A DNA stretch of 64,000 bases from positions 3,644,400 to 3,708,399 of the forward strand of contig NZ_CP076718.1 of assembly GCF_011682235.2 (NCBI RefSeq), read 5' to 3'. This document shows, piece after piece, positions 17,411 through 23,500 of the stretch. The notes under the pieces are model-generated. The model searched no databases and was not told the origin of the DNA. It saw only the letters and a program-made list of their open reading frames with translations. How positions within the stretch are numbered: position 1 is the first letter of the stretch; every line of letters begins with the position of its first letter. A program made the translations under genes and the position numbers. Source of the stretch: Rhodocaloribacter litoris (GTDB taxonomy: Bacteria > Bacteroidota > Rhodothermia > Rhodothermales > ISCAR-4553).

Positions 17411-17483
17411 GCCAACGTAGCTCAGCAGGTAGAGCAGCTCACTCGTAATGAGCAGGTCGCCGGTTCGAGTCCGGCCGTTGGCT
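17411..17483 (+). tRNA. tRNA-Thr (anticodon CGU)
   Basis: A standard 73-nt cloverleaf: acceptor GCCAACG pairs with CGTTGGC, discriminator T, D-arm GCTCAGCAGGTAGAGC, anticodon stem GCTCA/TGAGC with loop CTCGTAA giving anticodon CGT, and T-loop TTCGAGT. CCA is not encoded. Confidence 0.96.
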
Positions 17484-17491
17484 CGCAGCAA

Positions 17492-17528: not shown

Positions 17529-17564
17529 CCGGGTGCCCGCTGAATCTGCACCCCTAGCCGGTCT

Positions 17565-18111
17565 GTCAACCAACTTCAGGGCGATTATGCCGCGGCGGAG
17601 TCGCTCCATACGGCGTCGATCGCCCTGCACCGTGCCGCGCCCGATCCCGACCGGGAGGAATTCGCCGCCAGCCTCAACAACCTGGCGCTGGTCTACACCA
17701 ATTTCGGCAAGTACGAAGCCGCCGATTCGCTCTATCAACGAGGTGCTGGACGTGCTCGCCCAACTGTATGGGGAGGTGCATCCCCATATCGCCACGACCC
17801 TCCGGAACAGAGCCATCCTGCAGAAGCAGTCCGGAAACATGGCGGAGTCCGAAGCGCTGTTCCGCGAAGCCCTGGCGATGCACATCGAACTGCAGGGGGA
17901 GGACCACCTGGAGGTGGCACGGAGCCGCAGCCTCCTTGCCGAAGCGCTCATCCAGACCGGGCAGTTCCCCGAGGCCGAGTCGCTTCTGCTGGCCGCCCGC
18001 GCCCGCTTTGAAGCCGACGGGGAAACGGCATGGACGCAACGGGCCTACGAGGCCCTCCGCACCCTCTACCGGGCATGGGGGAAGACGCCCACGGCGATCC
18101 TGCGGGATTAA
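17565..18111 (+). pseudogene. 5'-truncated, frameshifted TPR protein remnant
   Basis: Two overlapping frames together encode kinesin-light-chain-type TPR repeats. In the first (codons in phase with 17577) one reads QGDYAAAESLHTASIALH and SLNNLALVYTNFGKYEAADS up to about 17735. The match then continues in the next frame from about 17737 as VLDVLAQLYGEVHPH, GNMAESEALFREALAMH and TGQFPEAESLLLAAR, ending at TAA 18111. One extra base near 17735 (CAACGAGGTGCTGG) explains the shift. No start codon, signal peptide or N-terminal half is present. The remnant begins about 40 bp after the tRNA-Thr terminator. In this phylum such repeats often form the C-terminal tail of Ser/Thr kinases or sensory proteins. 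Confidence 0.8.
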
Positions 18112-18212
18112 ATGGTGTGATCGGATCGGGGGCGTGTAACCAGGTCTGCGAGGTCGCGTAAGGCCAGAGCATGTATCGTAATCGTGTTTCACCTTTACCT
18201 CTGGAAAACGCA

Positions 18213-18644
18213 ATGATTCCTCCGCGGTCCCTGATGCGAACAGCCGTTTTCATCCTCGCCCTGGTGCTTCTGACGGGATGTGCCAGCACGGGCGTATTCA
18301 ACGCCGCCAACCTGACCAACGTGGAGCTTTCGGGGGACAACTACCGGGTGGTGGCCACGAACGTGTACGGTGAAGCCTCGGCGGCCTATCTGCTCGGCTT
18401 CAGCGTCGCACAGCGCGGGGAGATGCAGACCCTGGCGCTGATCCCGCTCGGCGGCAACCGCCTGCTCTACAAGGCCGCGCTGGAAAACCTGTGGCAGCGT
18501 TTTGCCGAGACGCATGGCCGCGTCGAGGGGCGGAGCCTGGCGCTGGTCAATGTGCGCTTCGATGCCGACGCGCAAAACGTGCTTTTCCTCTACACGAAGC
18601 CGACGATCTCCGTACGCGCCGACGTCGTCGAATTCATCCGGTGA
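18213..18644 (+). CDS. Small lipoprotein, DUF6567-like
   Basis: This 143-residue protein has a lipoprotein signal peptide (VFILALVLLTGC). The mature domain has features like the DUF6567 family (LTNVELSGDNYRVVATNVYGEASAAYLLG, then LLYKAALENLW). It contains a small-residue-rich central helix. It is probably anchored to the outer membrane on the periplasmic side. The start at 18213 is chosen from several in-frame ATGs (18171, 18213, 18234); 18234 begins right at the signal peptide. No function is established. It follows the TPR remnant on the same strand. Confidence 0.72.
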   Translation: MIPPRSLMRTAVFILALVLLTGCASTGVFNAANLTNVELSGDNYRVVATNVYGEASAAYLLGFSVAQRGEMQTLALIPLGGNRLLYKAALENLWQRFAETHGRVEGRSLALVNVRFDADAQNVLFLYTKPTISVRADVVEFIR

Positions 18645-18751: not shown

Positions 18752-18793
18752 TTGACAGAAGGCCGGTGTGTCTCATAAATTTAGGAGTCCTAA
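18752..18793 (+). promoter_or_regulatory. Promoter with palindromic operator TTAGGAGTCCTAA
   Basis: TTGACA (18752-18757), an 18-nt spacer and TAAATT (18776-18781) form a near-consensus sigma70 promoter. The -10 runs directly into the perfect palindrome TTAGGA-G-TCCTAA (18781-18793). The half-site with its flank, AATTTAGGAGT, recurs at the promoter of the nearby MarR gene (20233-20243, minus strand). This makes it a likely operator for that regulator. Confidence 0.7.
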
Positions 18794-18819
18794 TAAAAAT
18801 CAACCCGACCTGTTTCGCC

Positions 18820-19560
18820 ATGCGTCGCACGTATCCGCGTTTGCTCATGATGATCGGCCTCGTCGCCTTCACTGCTCACGAACCGGTGTTTGCCCAGCCG
18901 GCCCTCGATCCGCCGGCGGCGACCGCCGACCTCGACCTCACGGCCGTGCGGGTGCGCCACCTGACCGACCTGGGGGTGCTCGTTTTCGAGCAGGAAGTGG
19001 CCGGGACGGCCGGGGCGACGGTGCCCGAAGCCGCCGGCCGGCTCGACGGGGCGCCTGTTCTCGGCTACGTCTTCCCGACCACCCTGGCCCCGGAGGACGT
19101 GGGCTTTGCCCCGGGCGAAGGGGTGGTGGCGCTCGCCGCCACGTCGCACCCGGATTTCGACGACACGCCCCTCTGGGACGAGAACGGCGACCGGATTTAC
19201 GACAACGACGGCCGGATCTACCACACGCACTGGGTGGTGCTCATCCCCGATGAGCGGGTGCCCGGAGGGCTGGCCGTGAAGGAGACGAAGCGGGTTCAGG
19301 AGGACCTCCCGCCCACGGCACCCGGCATGCCGATGTACCTGGATTCCCCGGGGTTCGCCGTGCTGCTGCGGGGTAAGGTGCTCCGGATTCCCGTGCCGGT
19401 GGACCGCGTCGGCGGGCGGACGGACTTCCGGTTCGACGGGGTAACGGCCTATATGCAGGTCAACCAGTCCGATCCGAACCGGCCGCTGCTCGGGGTTTAC
19501 CGGGTGTACGAGGTACTCTCGGGCGACCTCAGCCTGCCTTACGCCATCACGCAGGAGTGA
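18820..19560 (+). CDS. Secreted protein of unknown function, probable MarR target
   Basis: The 246-residue protein has a signal peptide (LLMMIGLVAFTAHEPVFA), so it should be periplasmic or secreted. I do not recognise the family. Visible features are a V-rich domain with TDLGVLVFEQEV, a conserved-looking acidic/His patch FDDTPLWDENGDRIYDND followed by RIYHTHWVVL, and a C-terminal YRVYEVLSGDL. The Asp/Asn-rich stretch DENGDRIYDNDGR is reminiscent of a calcium-binding loop. The ATG at 18820 follows a strong promoter with a palindromic operator. It converges on the MarR gene with a 21-bp gap, and the shared operator suggests MarR controls it. Confidence 0.75.
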   Translation: MRRTYPRLLMMIGLVAFTAHEPVFAQPALDPPAATADLDLTAVRVRHLTDLGVLVFEQEVAGTAGATVPEAAGRLDGAPVLGYVFPTTLAPEDVGFAPGEGVVALAATSHPDFDDTPLWDENGDRIYDNDGRIYHTHWVVLIPDERVPGGLAVKETKRVQEDLPPTAPGMPMYLDSPGFAVLLRGKVLRIPVPVDRVGGRTDFRFDGVTAYMQVNQSDPNRPLLGVYRVYEVLSGDLSLPYAITQE

Positions 19561-19581
19561 GCCCGGTTGCCGGGATGCGTG

Positions 19582-20211
19582 TCAGCCGGAAGCCGGCTCG
19601 TGCTCGGGGCAGTCGAGGCGGAGCTGGTGGAGGCGGAGCGGCCGGTCCAGCAGACGGCAGTGGTGGGGCGCGTCCGGATCGTCGTGGCGGTCCGGTGCGA
19701 AGAAGCGGCACGTGAGGCACATCCGCGCCACGGTGATCACCCCGGCGTCGTGAAGATGGGCGATGAGGTTCATGAGGAAGCGCATCACCGGCAGCTTTTC
19801 GGCGTCGGTGTAGCCGGCGAGGTACGCCTGCAGGGCGCCGGCCCAGCCGGCAAGACGGCCGGCGGTCTCCCGGCCGGCCGGTGTCAACGCGAGGAGGCGG
19901 GCACGCCGGTCGTCCGGGTCCGGGACCCGCGAGAGGAGCCCTTTCGCCGCCAGCGTGCGCACGGCGTCGCTGACCGTGGCAGGGGTCAGGTCGAACCGCC
20001 GGGCGAGGTCCCCGATCCGGCACGTCCCGCCGGGAAGGAAGCGCAGGTAGACGAGGAACTGGATCTGGATCGGGCTCAGCCCGGTCTCGGTGGCGACTTC
20101 CCACAGCAGGACCCGGAACGCCTGGCTCAGGCGCTCCAGCGCCGCCACGATCTTGGCGTCGACGTGCTCGTGCTGCGCTTCGGGGTCGAAGGGAGAGAAG
20201 GTTCCCGGCAT
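19582..20211 (-). CDS. MarR-family regulator with C-terminal Cys/His cluster
   Basis: A 209-residue winged-helix repressor. The helix-turn-helix lies at about 64-88 (CRIGDLARRFDLTPATVSDAVRTL), with the wing PDPDDRRARLLALTPAG following. Unlike standard MarR proteins (about 140-150 residues) it has a tail with Cys165, Cys168, Cys185 and Cys201 plus His183/184 and His204. This arrangement could bind zinc or an iron-sulfur cluster, or sense redox state. The tail motif ends LRLDCPEH. Its own promoter carries the same AATTTAGGAGT box as the convergent gene at 18820, implying autoregulation. The inducer is unknown. Confidence 0.88.
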   Translation of the reverse strand: MPGTFSPFDPEAQHEHVDAKIVAALERLSQAFRVLLWEVATETGLSPIQIQFLVYLRFLPGGTCRIGDLARRFDLTPATVSDAVRTLAAKGLLSRVPDPDDRRARLLALTPAGRETAGRLAGWAGALQAYLAGYTDAEKLPVMRFLMNLIAHLHDAGVITVARMCLTCRFFAPDRHDDPDAPHHCRLLDRPLRLHQLRLDCPEHEPASG

Positions 20212-20232
20212 GCCGTTTTCGAATTGATTTGC

Positions 20233-20267
20233 ACTCCTAAATTAATGAATCGGCCTGCGGGGGGCAA
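20233..20267 (-). promoter_or_regulatory. MarR gene promoter with AATTTAGGAGT operator half-site
   Basis: On the minus strand, TTGCCC (20262-20267), a 17-nt spacer and TAATTT (20239-20244) form a promoter. The -10 overlaps AATTTAGGAGT (20233-20243), which matches the left part of the operator at 18778-18788. The placement at -10 is the same in both promoters, which is what repression by one protein would need. Confidence 0.6.
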
Positions 20268-20383: not shown

Positions 20384-20410
20384 GGTATGTCACACCAGCG
20401 AGCTGGAGCC

Positions 20411-20818
20411 ATGGGAAGCCGGGAGGTCAACGACCGTACCTGTATTCGCAAGCAGGTCGATCCGCGGAAGCTCGAACACCTCCGTCAGGAGGCCTACGCC
20501 AACGATCATCTGGTGGCGCTGGCGGCGTTCATGTCCGCCGCGAGCAACGAGACGCGGCTGCGGATGCTTTACGTGCTCTGGCGGGCCGGGGAGCTCTGCG
20601 TGTGCGACCTGGCCGACGTCTTCGAGATCACCCAGCCGGCCGTCTCGCGTCACCTGAAGATCCTGCGCGAGAAGGCGCTCGTCGAGGCGCGGCGTGATGC
20701 GCAGACGATCTACTACCGGGTCTGCACCGACAACCCGTTCGCCCGGCTGCTCGTCGGTTTTTTCGAAGCCCGCGAAGCCGATCGTATCACCCTCAACCTG
20801 AAGGACCTTTTGCCATGA
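20411..20818 (+). CDS. ArsR/SmtB-family metalloregulator of the mer operon
   Basis: This 135-residue repressor has the ArsR winged helix. The alpha-3 metal motif ELCVCDL supplies Cys63 and Cys65, and TCIRKQ near the N-terminus supplies Cys11. The recognition helix is ITQPAVSRHLKILREKALV. These three cysteines could form a thiolate site for Hg(II), As(III), Cd(II) or Pb(II). Its 3' end overlaps the MerT-MerP start by 4 bp (ATGA), so it is first in the operon. Start 20411 has GGAG upstream; 20387 is an in-frame alternative that would lie within the likely promoter. In this operon ArsR takes the place of the usual MerR. Confidence 0.9.
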   Translation: MGSREVNDRTCIRKQVDPRKLEHLRQEAYANDHLVALAAFMSAASNETRLRMLYVLWRAGELCVCDLADVFEITQPAVSRHLKILREKALVEARRDAQTIYYRVCTDNPFARLLVGFFEAREADRITLNLKDLLP

Positions 20819-21414
20819 GTGACGAAAATCGGAAGACCACGTGGGGCCTTGCGGCGGCCCTTGGTGCGGCCGTGGCCGCCTCGGCCTGCTGCACCCTCCC
20901 GCTGCTGCTGGTGGCCCTGGGTGTCGGCGGGGCCTGGATTGGCACCCTGACGGCCCTGGAGCCTTACCGACCGGTCTTTATCGTGCTGGCGCTCGGGGCC
21001 CTCGGCTATGCCGGCTACCGGGAGTGGCGCATGAGCCGGGGGCCGGATTGCGACTGTGAGGTGTCGATGCAGGACCGGTTGCGCCGGACCCTGCTCGGCC
21101 TGGGGCTTGTGGCCGTGCTCGGGCTGATCGCCTCACCCTGGATCATCGGTGCCGTGGCCGATACCGGTAGCGTGGCTGCAGCGAGCACGCAGACCGAACA
21201 GGTGGTGCTCGAGGTCGAAGGGATGACGTGCGCCGCGTGCAACGTGACCGTCCAGAAGGCACTCACCAACCTGGACGGGGTGAAAGAAGCCCGGGTGACC
21301 TTCACACCGCCGCAGGCCGTTGTCACCTACGACCCGTCCCGCGTGACCGTGGACGACCTGGTCCGTGCCACCACGAACGTGGGTTATCCCTCGAAACCCA
21401 AACAAGGAGCCTGA
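20815..21414 (+). CDS. MerT-MerP fusion mercury transporter
   Basis: This 199-residue protein fuses a MerT-like membrane domain to a MerP-like domain. MerT part: three transmembrane segments, the vicinal Cys25-Cys26 pair in TM1 (ASACCTLP), and a cytoplasmic DCDC pair near residue 80. The heavy-metal-associated domain (about 132-195) has GMTCAACNVTVQKAL. MerT moves Hg(II) across the inner membrane to MerA. The fused domain probably collects or hands over the ion. It overlaps the ArsR stop by 4 bp. The next gene starts 1 bp after its stop codon. Confidence 0.92.
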   Translation: MSDENRKTTWGLAAALGAAVAASACCTLPLLLVALGVGGAWIGTLTALEPYRPVFIVLALGALGYAGYREWRMSRGPDCDCEVSMQDRLRRTLLGLGLVAVLGLIASPWIIGAVADTGSVAAASTQTEQVVLEVEGMTCAACNVTVQKALTNLDGVKEARVTFTPPQAVVTYDPSRVTVDDLVRATTNVGYPSKPKQGA

Positions 21415-21415
21415 C

Positions 21416-21784
21416 ATGAACACGAGCAGAGGACGTCGCCGGGTGCTTCCGGGCGGCCTCGCGGCGGCCGTGGTGGCGCTCTGTTGCGTCGTGCCGTTGC
21501 CGGGCCTGATCCCGGCCGCCCGGCCGGCGGTGCCTGCCGAAGCGGGTCTCAAGGTGGCGGTCTTCTCCATCGAAAGCCCGTTCTGCAGCGGCTGTGTCGC
21601 GGGTCTGAAAGCCACCGTAGGTGAGCTTGAAGGGGTGAAAGAGGTGGCGGTGGACGTGGAAAACCACCGGTTGATCGTCACCTTCGACGAAGCCGGGCGG
21701 ACGGTCGAGGCGTTGCAGCAGGCCATCGTCGAAGCGACTTCCTTCAAGATCCGGCTCATCGAGGTCCGGAAAGCAACGGGCTGA
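21416..21784 (+). CDS. Periplasmic MerP-like heavy-metal-associated protein
   Basis: A 122-residue secreted protein with signal peptide (GGLAAAVVALCCVVPL) and one HMA-type domain. The metal site reads SPFCSGCVAGLK instead of the usual GMTCxxC. Ferredoxin-like strands follow (VKEVAVDVENHRLIVTFDEAGRTVEAL). It would bind Hg(II) outside the inner membrane and pass it to the MerT-MerP fusion. ATG 21416 is used with AAGGAG upstream. It lies between the transporter and merA, so the operon has a second MerP-type domain in addition to the fused one. Confidence 0.88.
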   Translation: MNTSRGRRRVLPGGLAAAVVALCCVVPLPGLIPAARPAVPAEAGLKVAVFSIESPFCSGCVAGLKATVGELEGVKEVAVDVENHRLIVTFDEAGRTVEALQQAIVEATSFKIRLIEVRKATG

Positions 21785-21832
21785 TATCGGGCCAGGAATC
21801 TTGCATACCATGCACCGGGAATCTTTCATACC

Positions 21833-23500
21833 ATGCAACAGACGATCGTACTCGAGATCAAGGAGATGACGTGCAGCGGGTGTGCGCGTCACGTCACAAA
21901 GGCCCTGCAAGGCGTTTCGGGGGTGGAGGGGGTGATGCTGCCGGGCTGGGAGGCCGGCCGGGCGCAGGTGCGCGTGGCGGCGGGCGTCACGCCGGAGCGG
22001 CTCGTGGAGGCCGTCGCGCAGGCCGGGTACCGGGCGGGCGTGGTGGACGTCCGGGCAGCGGGGCGTCCGCCCGCGCCGGCGTCGCAGGGCGACGGGGCGT
22101 CGACCTACGACCTCGCCATCCTCGGCGGCGGGTCGGCGGCCTTCGCGGCGGCGCTCAAGGCCTCCGAGCTGGGGGGGCGCGTCGTGATCGTCAACGACGG
22201 GTTGCCGATCGGCGGGACGTGTGTCAACGTCGGCTGTGTGCCGTCGAAGGCGCTCATCCGTGCCGCCGAGCAGGTCCATCGCGCCGCGCGTTCGCCGTTC
22301 GATGGCATTGCCACCACGGCCCGCGTCGCCGACTTTGCCGCCGTCACCGGGCAGGTCCGCACGCTGGTGCAGGCGCTCCGGCAGCACAAATACGTGGACG
22401 TGGCGGCGGCCGACCCGAACGTCACGATCCTCGAAGGCCGGGGGCGGCTGGCGGCTCCCGGCGTGGTCGAGGTGAACGGGCGGGTGCTCCGGGCGAAGAA
22501 CGTGCTCATTGCCACCGGGGCCCGGACGGCCGTGCCGCCGATCCCCGGCCTGGACACGGTCGAGGTGCTCACGAACGAGACGGTCTTCGGGCTGGACACC
22601 CTGCCGGCGCACCTGATCGTCATCGGCGGCGGGTACATCGGAGTGGAGACGGCCCAGGCCTTCCGCCGCCTCGGCAGCGAGGTGACGGTCGTCGACCTGC
22701 TGCCCCGCATCCTCGACCTGGCCGGTGAGGAGCTGTCCGGGGGCCTGCAGGCGTATCTGGAAGCGGAAGGGATCCGGTTCGTGCTCGAAGCCCGGGTGCA
22801 GCAGGTGCGCCGCGAGGGAGCCGGCGTGCTCGTCGCCGTCGAGACCGGCGGGCGGCGGCACGAACTCCGGGGCAGCCACCTGTTTCTGGCCACCGGGCGG
22901 CGGGGCAACACGGAGGACCTCGGCCTCGAAGCGCTCGGCATCGCGACCGACCGCGCGGGCTTCCTGCAGGTAGACGATTCCCTGCGGACCGCCGTGCCGA
23001 CCGTCTTCGGTGCGGGCGACGTCATCGGCGGCGAGATGTTCGTCTACACGGCGGCCTATGAGGGCAGCCTGGCGGCCGAGAACGCCCTGAAGGGCTATCA
23101 CCTCCGGCGCGACTACACGGCGCTGCCCTGGGTGGTCTTCACCGATCCGCAGGTGGCCGGGGTGGGGATGGACGAGAGGGAGGCCGGGGCGGCCGGTCTC
23201 CCGTACGAGGTCGCCCGGTTGCCGCTCGACCAGGTGCCCCGTGCGCTGGCCGCCCGCGACACGCGCGGGTTCGTCAAGCTCATCCGCCATGCCGAGACGG
23301 ATGTGCTGCTGGGGGCCCGCATCCTGGCGCCCGAGGGGGGCGAGCTGCTCATGGAGCTGGCCCTGGCCGTCAGGTACGGCATCCCCGTGCGGGAGCTGGC
23401 CGCGGCGTTCCATCCGTACCTGACCCTGTCCGAGGCCGTCAAGCTGGCGGCCATCACCTTCGGCAAGGACGTCAGCAAGCTGAGTTGTTGTGCGGCGTGA
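21833..23500 (+). CDS. merA: Mercuric reductase MerA with N-terminal HMA domain
   Basis: The 555-residue flavoenzyme reduces Hg(II) to Hg(0) with NADPH in the cytoplasm. An N-terminal HMA domain (residues 1-70) has MTCSGC (Cys14, Cys17). The pyridine nucleotide-disulfide oxidoreductase core follows, with FAD-binding ILGGGSAAFAAALKA, the redox pair Cys130/Cys135 in GGTCVNVGCVPSK, NADPH-binding VIGGGYIGVETAQAF and FAD-binding FGAGDV. The C-terminal vicinal Cys552-Cys553 pair (KLSCCAA) is specific to MerA. It is the last gene of the arsR-merTP-merP-merA operon. The 48-bp gap before it contains a direct repeat of sequence around TTGCATACCATGCA / TTTCATACCATGCA. Confidence 0.97.
   Translation: MQQTIVLEIKEMTCSGCARHVTKALQGVSGVEGVMLPGWEAGRAQVRVAAGVTPERLVEAVAQAGYRAGVVDVRAAGRPPAPASQGDGASTYDLAILGGGSAAFAAALKASELGGRVVIVNDGLPIGGTCVNVGCVPSKALIRAAEQVHRAARSPFDGIATTARVADFAAVTGQVRTLVQALRQHKYVDVAAADPNVTILEGRGRLAAPGVVEVNGRVLRAKNVLIATGARTAVPPIPGLDTVEVLTNETVFGLDTLPAHLIVIGGGYIGVETAQAFRRLGSEVTVVDLLPRILDLAGEELSGGLQAYLEAEGIRFVLEARVQQVRREGAGVLVAVETGGRRHELRGSHLFLATGRRGNTEDLGLEALGIATDRAGFLQVDDSLRTAVPTVFGAGDVIGGEMFVYTAAYEGSLAAENALKGYHLRRDYTALPWVVFTDPQVAGVGMDEREAGAAGLPYEVARLPLDQVPRALAARDTRGFVKLIRHAETDVLLGARILAPEGGELLMELALAVRYGIPVRELAAAFHPYLTLSEAVKLAAITFGKDVSKLSCCAA

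Follow-up and report, generated by a model that had tools for sequence, protein, structure and literature searches.

In a 64,000-nucleotide stretch of the Rhodocaloribacter litoris genome (the window), we found that a gene for a MarR-family regulator and a convergent gene for an exported protein, here called sec, appear to form a widespread module that is not peculiar to this genome, and the other members of the module suggest a link to stress from nitrogen oxides, hydroxylamine or peroxide. We lean towards the reading that the regulator represses its own gene and has, in its C-terminal four-cysteine (Cys4) tail, a site for a metal or an Fe-S cluster, with reactive nitrogen or redox stress lifting the repression. 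The sequence anatomy, the conservation of the operator and the co-inheritance of regulator, operator and target were established directly. The genes and sites of the locus are as follows.

18752-18781, + strand: predicted sec promoter TTGACA-18-TAAATT, from the promoter scan, ending exactly at the start of the box.
18781-18793, + strand: operator TTAGGAGTCCTAA, a perfect palindrome against the predicted -10, its motif kept upstream of homologues.
18820-19560, + strand: sec gene, encoding an exported 246-aa protein that matches no recognised family.
19147-19233, + strand: invariant Asp/His motif, sec residues 110-138, from the alignment; a likely metal site.
19582-20211, - strand: marR gene, encoding a MarR-family regulator of 209 aa, with its start at 20211.
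19585-19743, - strand: C-terminal Cys4 tail, MarR residues 157-209, with Cys 165, 168, 185 and 201.
20228-20240, - strand: putative operator TTAGGAGTGCAAA at the marR promoter, a degenerate palindrome (10/12) within AATTTAGGAGT.

The coordinates and convergent orientation given for this pair in a preliminary description, made from the sequence alone, are right. Just upstream of the operator lies a gene for a small lipoprotein-like DUF6567 protein (18171-18644), which is not conserved alongside the module, and a tetratricopeptide-like stretch, apparently frame-broken, is found at 17533-18111, just after a tRNA-Thr gene (17411-17484).

The palindrome reported earlier at the sec -10 is indeed there: TTAGGAGTCCTAA, whose symmetry centre is its central G, directly abuts the predicted -10 TAAATT. 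An 11-mer, AATTTAGGAGT, is shared by the two promoters (18778-18788 on the + strand and 20233-20243 on the - strand), with 2 copies observed in the window against 0.09 expected. Across all 4,502,320 bases of the genome, AATTTAGGAGT, and even TTTAGGAGT, has just two copies, one at the sec promoter and one at the marR promoter. The matching box reported earlier before marR is thus confirmed; the promoter on that side is a weak consensus match that the promoter scan did not call. No convincing target gene was found at other near-matching sites elsewhere in this genome.

The operator is conserved among relatives. When perfect 13-bp palindromes upstream of homologous genes were counted without bias, with shuffles as control, TTAGGANTCCTAA (TTAGGA-N-TCCTAA) ranked first, with 28 loci against a shuffle maximum of 2. 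A box matching at least 11 of 12 positions lies upstream of sec in 46/83 cases, of a gene for a thioredoxin-like protein in 37/41 and of marR in 33/95, and the reversed control motif was found in none of the same upstream regions. A perfect (12/12) box precedes marR in none of the 95 homologues, and the marR site of the window is likewise imperfect, which suggests weaker autorepression. Exact boxes are concentrated in the module, with 8 of 11 inside it in 20 MarR-bearing Bacteroidota genomes and 10 of 13 in 20 genomes of several phyla; of the three outside it in the cross-phylum set, one is on a short contig and two fall within coding sequence. Across phyla the TTGAC -35 element keeps a conserved spacing to the box, which fits a repressor covering the -10/start region. 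About 15 of the 101 main-branch loci have no box of at least 10/12 near MarR, and this counts against our preferred explanation.

The sec search gave 340 confirmed relatives in bacterial genomes, and the best 80 of these, examined as loci, come from Bacteroidota, Cyanobacteria, Gemmatimonadota, Acidobacteriota, Chloroflexota, Planctomycetota and others. A MarR homologue lies within the fetched flanks of sec in 74 of these best 80 loci. The preliminary description had proposed looking for the gene pair and its box in other genomes; the pair recurs across phyla, and TTAGGANTCCTAA is the top palindrome at its promoters there. The distance matrices of sec and MarR are correlated (r = 0.84; no value above 0.21 arose in 999 permutations), indicating that the two travel together. 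Neither was found in the sampled relatives listed from the window's own order, which suggests horizontal acquisition.

Homologous loci are related and not independent, and the least biased test is a draw of 296 genomes, in which MarR is present in 21, including the window's own. With a box score of at least 10 as threshold, the box was found at a target promoter in 18 of the 20 draw genomes with MarR (the window's own left out) and in 0 of the 22 that carry target families without MarR (P about 5e-10). The shared operator and autoregulation proposed earlier are thus supported by a box that segregates with the regulator across phyla, and the comparison of relatives carrying both genes, in which absence of the box had been named in advance as the outcome that would speak against them, came out strongly in their favour. 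In one genome the only exact box lies 39 bp before a cytochrome P460 gene, and MarR is on another contig. Six sec-bearing draw genomes without MarR count against the preferred explanation. Two loci and five genomes keep sec with MarR and box both absent, and in one of these loci a LysR-type gene stands directly upstream instead.

In 7 homologous loci the regulator belongs to a divergent branch whose recognition helix differs. None of them contains a TTAGGA box; a different palindrome, TATCGANTCGATA, is present at their sec/marR promoters, and the same arrangement is seen in Phaeobacter. That each regulator branch goes with its own operator type is, of the comparative arguments, the strongest one that the MarR protein of the window would read the box, and the binding and repression that we infer have good comparative support. 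Eight loci carry a second-branch Cys4 MarR with TATCGANTCGATA, divergent to the sec family.

The regulator is a clear MarR protein, with Pfam scores of 57 bits for MarR_2 (cut-off 27) and 42.6 bits for MarR (cut-off 24.6). Its model has a pLDDT of 95.8, with the core predicted at high confidence, and the predicted fold resembles ST1710 (Z about 14); wing residues D101 and R103 are invariant among homologues. Besides Cys64, the protein has the four C-terminal cysteines at 165, 168, 185 and 201, exactly as first reported. They are invariant in 96/96 homologues and recur in 12 further plasmid homologues, so that the motif is present in 108/108 proteins examined, including those from Thermus, Deinococcus and Alphaproteobacteria. 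This invariance across phyla lends support to the earlier idea of a cysteine-based sensor, and the Cys4 site is most likely a metal or Fe-S cluster site. Sequence matches to solved MarR proteins do not extend past about residue 156, and structural alignments mostly stop by residue 158, although a few run on to 161-170, which indicates that the Cys4 tail is an added module.

The N-terminus of sec has a hydrophobic signal-like stretch, and signal or lipobox sequences are common across its family. The Asp/His-rich loop HPDFDDTPLWDENGDRIYDNDGRIYHTHW (residues 110-138) had been described as Ca-site-like; the loop is present, but it is better termed a conserved Asp/His metal-site-like motif. In the family alignment H110, D112, D114, D115, D120, E121, H135, H137 and W138 are invariant, and these residues likely form a metal site. 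No usable match to sec was found in Pfam, NCBIfam, PHROGs or PDB. The predicted fold is a beta-sandwich (pLDDT 87.1), for which 2ivf_C, the haem subunit of ethylbenzene dehydrogenase (EB_dh), is the top structural row (Z 6.8, rmsd 4.5, 144 aligned), a background-level resemblance tied with antibody domains. No similarity was found between the sec profile and nine EB_dh sequences; the reading of sec as an EB_dh/CBM9-like haem protein, prompted by that weak structural hint, thus has no profile support and was set aside.

Companion genes bear on the likely signal. Among the genes that follow a box or share its operon are those for cytochrome P460, protoglobin, truncated and single-domain globins, HTHP, catalase, and thioredoxin-like and redoxin proteins; DUF2024 is also among the box-led or neighbouring genes. 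Of the 101 sec or MarR loci, 51 have DUF2024, and 51 have a 78-aa thioredoxin-like CPVC protein. MarR co-occurs with P460 in 7/11 genomes (P 9e-7), with DUF2024 in 10/14 (P 2.5e-10) and with protoglobin in 5/14 (P 0.0015). For example, Thermus plasmids show a P460-MarR arrangement, the MarR homologue of Thermus thermophilus HB27 adjoins a P460 gene, a Shinella plasmid carries MarR-sec-redoxin-MOSC-Rrf2, and a Hymenobacter plasmid carries a catalase-sec-HTHP-protoglobin-DUF2024-(ROF-like)-MarR cluster together with a MOSC gene. The MOSC proteins of the module are nearest to 6-hydroxyaminopurine reductase, and for the Rrf2 neighbour in Deinococcus the nearest is NsrR, though neither match reaches its curated cut-off. 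Cytochrome P460 has known roles in hydroxylamine and NO chemistry (PMC5872139, PMC11928373). Taken together, these companions favour reactive nitrogen species as the signal, and the chief alternative is general redox stress; peroxide-type and thiol proteins are also in the module, so the signal may be broader, which weighs against our preferred explanation.

Small ROF-like proteins recur near marR in nine loci; of two that were tested, one matches PF07073 (modulator of Rho-dependent termination). For the DUF2024 and thioredoxin-like proteins of the module, PDB 2hfq and 2k8s are the only solved relatives, both presumably from Nitrosomonas europaea, an ammonia oxidiser.

The genome of the window lacks DUF2024 and protoglobin; it has no haem target with a box, and its P460-like gene is without one, which also counts against the preferred explanation. 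The circuit here seems to be reduced to two genes.

In the circuit that we favour, MarR would bind TTAGGANTCCTAA-type palindromes over the -10/start region and occlude RNA polymerase, repressing its own gene through the weaker, degenerate site and the convergent gene for the exported, probably metal-binding protein through the strong, perfect one. The four invariant tail cysteines would ligate a metal ion or Fe-S cluster; reactive nitrogen (NO, hydroxylamine or related) or linked redox stress would damage this site, whereupon the DNA would be released and both genes switched on. Elsewhere, the same regulator may control P460, protoglobin, globins, HTHP, thioredoxin-like proteins and DUF2024. 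The cofactor, signal and function of the exported protein in this scheme are our proposals from the comparative evidence. More tentatively, the MarR fold with an NO-reactive Fe-S Cys4 tail could constitute a cross-phylum sensor of nitrogen oxides and hydroxylamine with its own operator, independent of NsrR and, to our knowledge, of other NO sensors. Its regulon might then comprise haem proteins, DUF2024, thioredoxin-like proteins and an unstudied family of exported metalloproteins, which is an equally tentative suggestion.

The most serious rival keeps the circuit and makes Cys4 a zinc site, structural or a thiol switch, that answers peroxide, hypochlorite or electrophiles rather than nitrogen oxides. 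The tail pattern CxxC-x-C-x-C is a common zinc pattern, and the thioredoxin-like CPVC, peroxiredoxin-like, HTHP and catalase neighbours would suit such a site; we nevertheless regard it as less likely than our preferred reading, given the repeated pairing with P460, protoglobin, the MOSC proteins nearest to 6-hydroxyaminopurine reductase and an NsrR-like Rrf2 neighbour. It is far less probable that another transcription factor binds the box and MarR merely co-travels. The case for MarR binding is a comparative one, which leaves some room for this reading, but the box occurs only in genomes with MarR, regulator branch and operator type switch together, and the marR promoter itself carries a site.

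Slimmer still is the chance that MarR is the heavy-metal sensor of the mercury-resistance-type cluster adjoining the pair (20387-23500: an ArsR-type regulator, a MerT-HMA fusion, an HMA protein and a MerA-like reductase). This adjacency and the Cys-rich tail invite the idea, but a mer transporter or mercuric reductase homologue is near 0 of 101 homologous loci, and the cluster has its own ArsR-type gene. Finally, a chance match or general promoter element, as might be imagined from the overlap with the A/T-rich -10 region, is rejected, the box having only two genomic copies, both here, and a palindrome conserved across phyla.

Compared with known systems, the regulator shares with other MarR proteins (MepR, ST1710, SlyA, HpaR) a winged-helix core, a palindromic promoter operator and, as we propose, the control of a local target together with its own gene, but it has an extra 50-residue Cys4 tail, uncovered by most solved relatives, and its own operator TTAGGANTCCTAA. 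MarR proteins bind palindromic operators as homodimers, and a conserved palindrome is what we see here. The thiol-switch proteins OhrR, SarZ and MgrA and the zinc regulators AdcR and ZitR combine a MarR fold with a similar thiol- or metal-based response, and their Cys or metal ligands are placed in the MarR core. This MarR scores far below the cut-offs of the NCBIfam models for OhrR (19.5 bits, cut-off 200) and AdcR/ZitR (26.6 bits, cut-off 175). NsrR, an NO-sensing repressor of the Rrf2 family, would act alike as a Cys-ligated sensor repressing NO-related genes, but it differs in fold and family, and this MarR scores 14.4 bits against the Rrf2 Pfam model (cut-off 30). For the NO-reactive Fe-S cluster of NsrR, the candidate counterpart here is the set of four invariant Cys. 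In literature of partial coverage, nothing relevant was found on the operator sequence or on a MarR with DUF2024, protoglobin, P460/nitric oxide or Fe-S, and the earlier remark that no description of the pair was known agrees with our finding none for regulator, operator and target there.

A regulator-box pair that recurs across phyla beside haem proteins of NO, hydroxylamine and peroxide chemistry has the look of a stress-response circuit not described before. If so, a regulator subfamily would be added that is widespread, seemingly has no name and comes with a defined operator, and a function open to testing would be assigned both to DUF2024 and to a family of exported proteins found in hundreds of genomes. 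Cytochrome P460, protoglobins and several globins would come under one common regulator.
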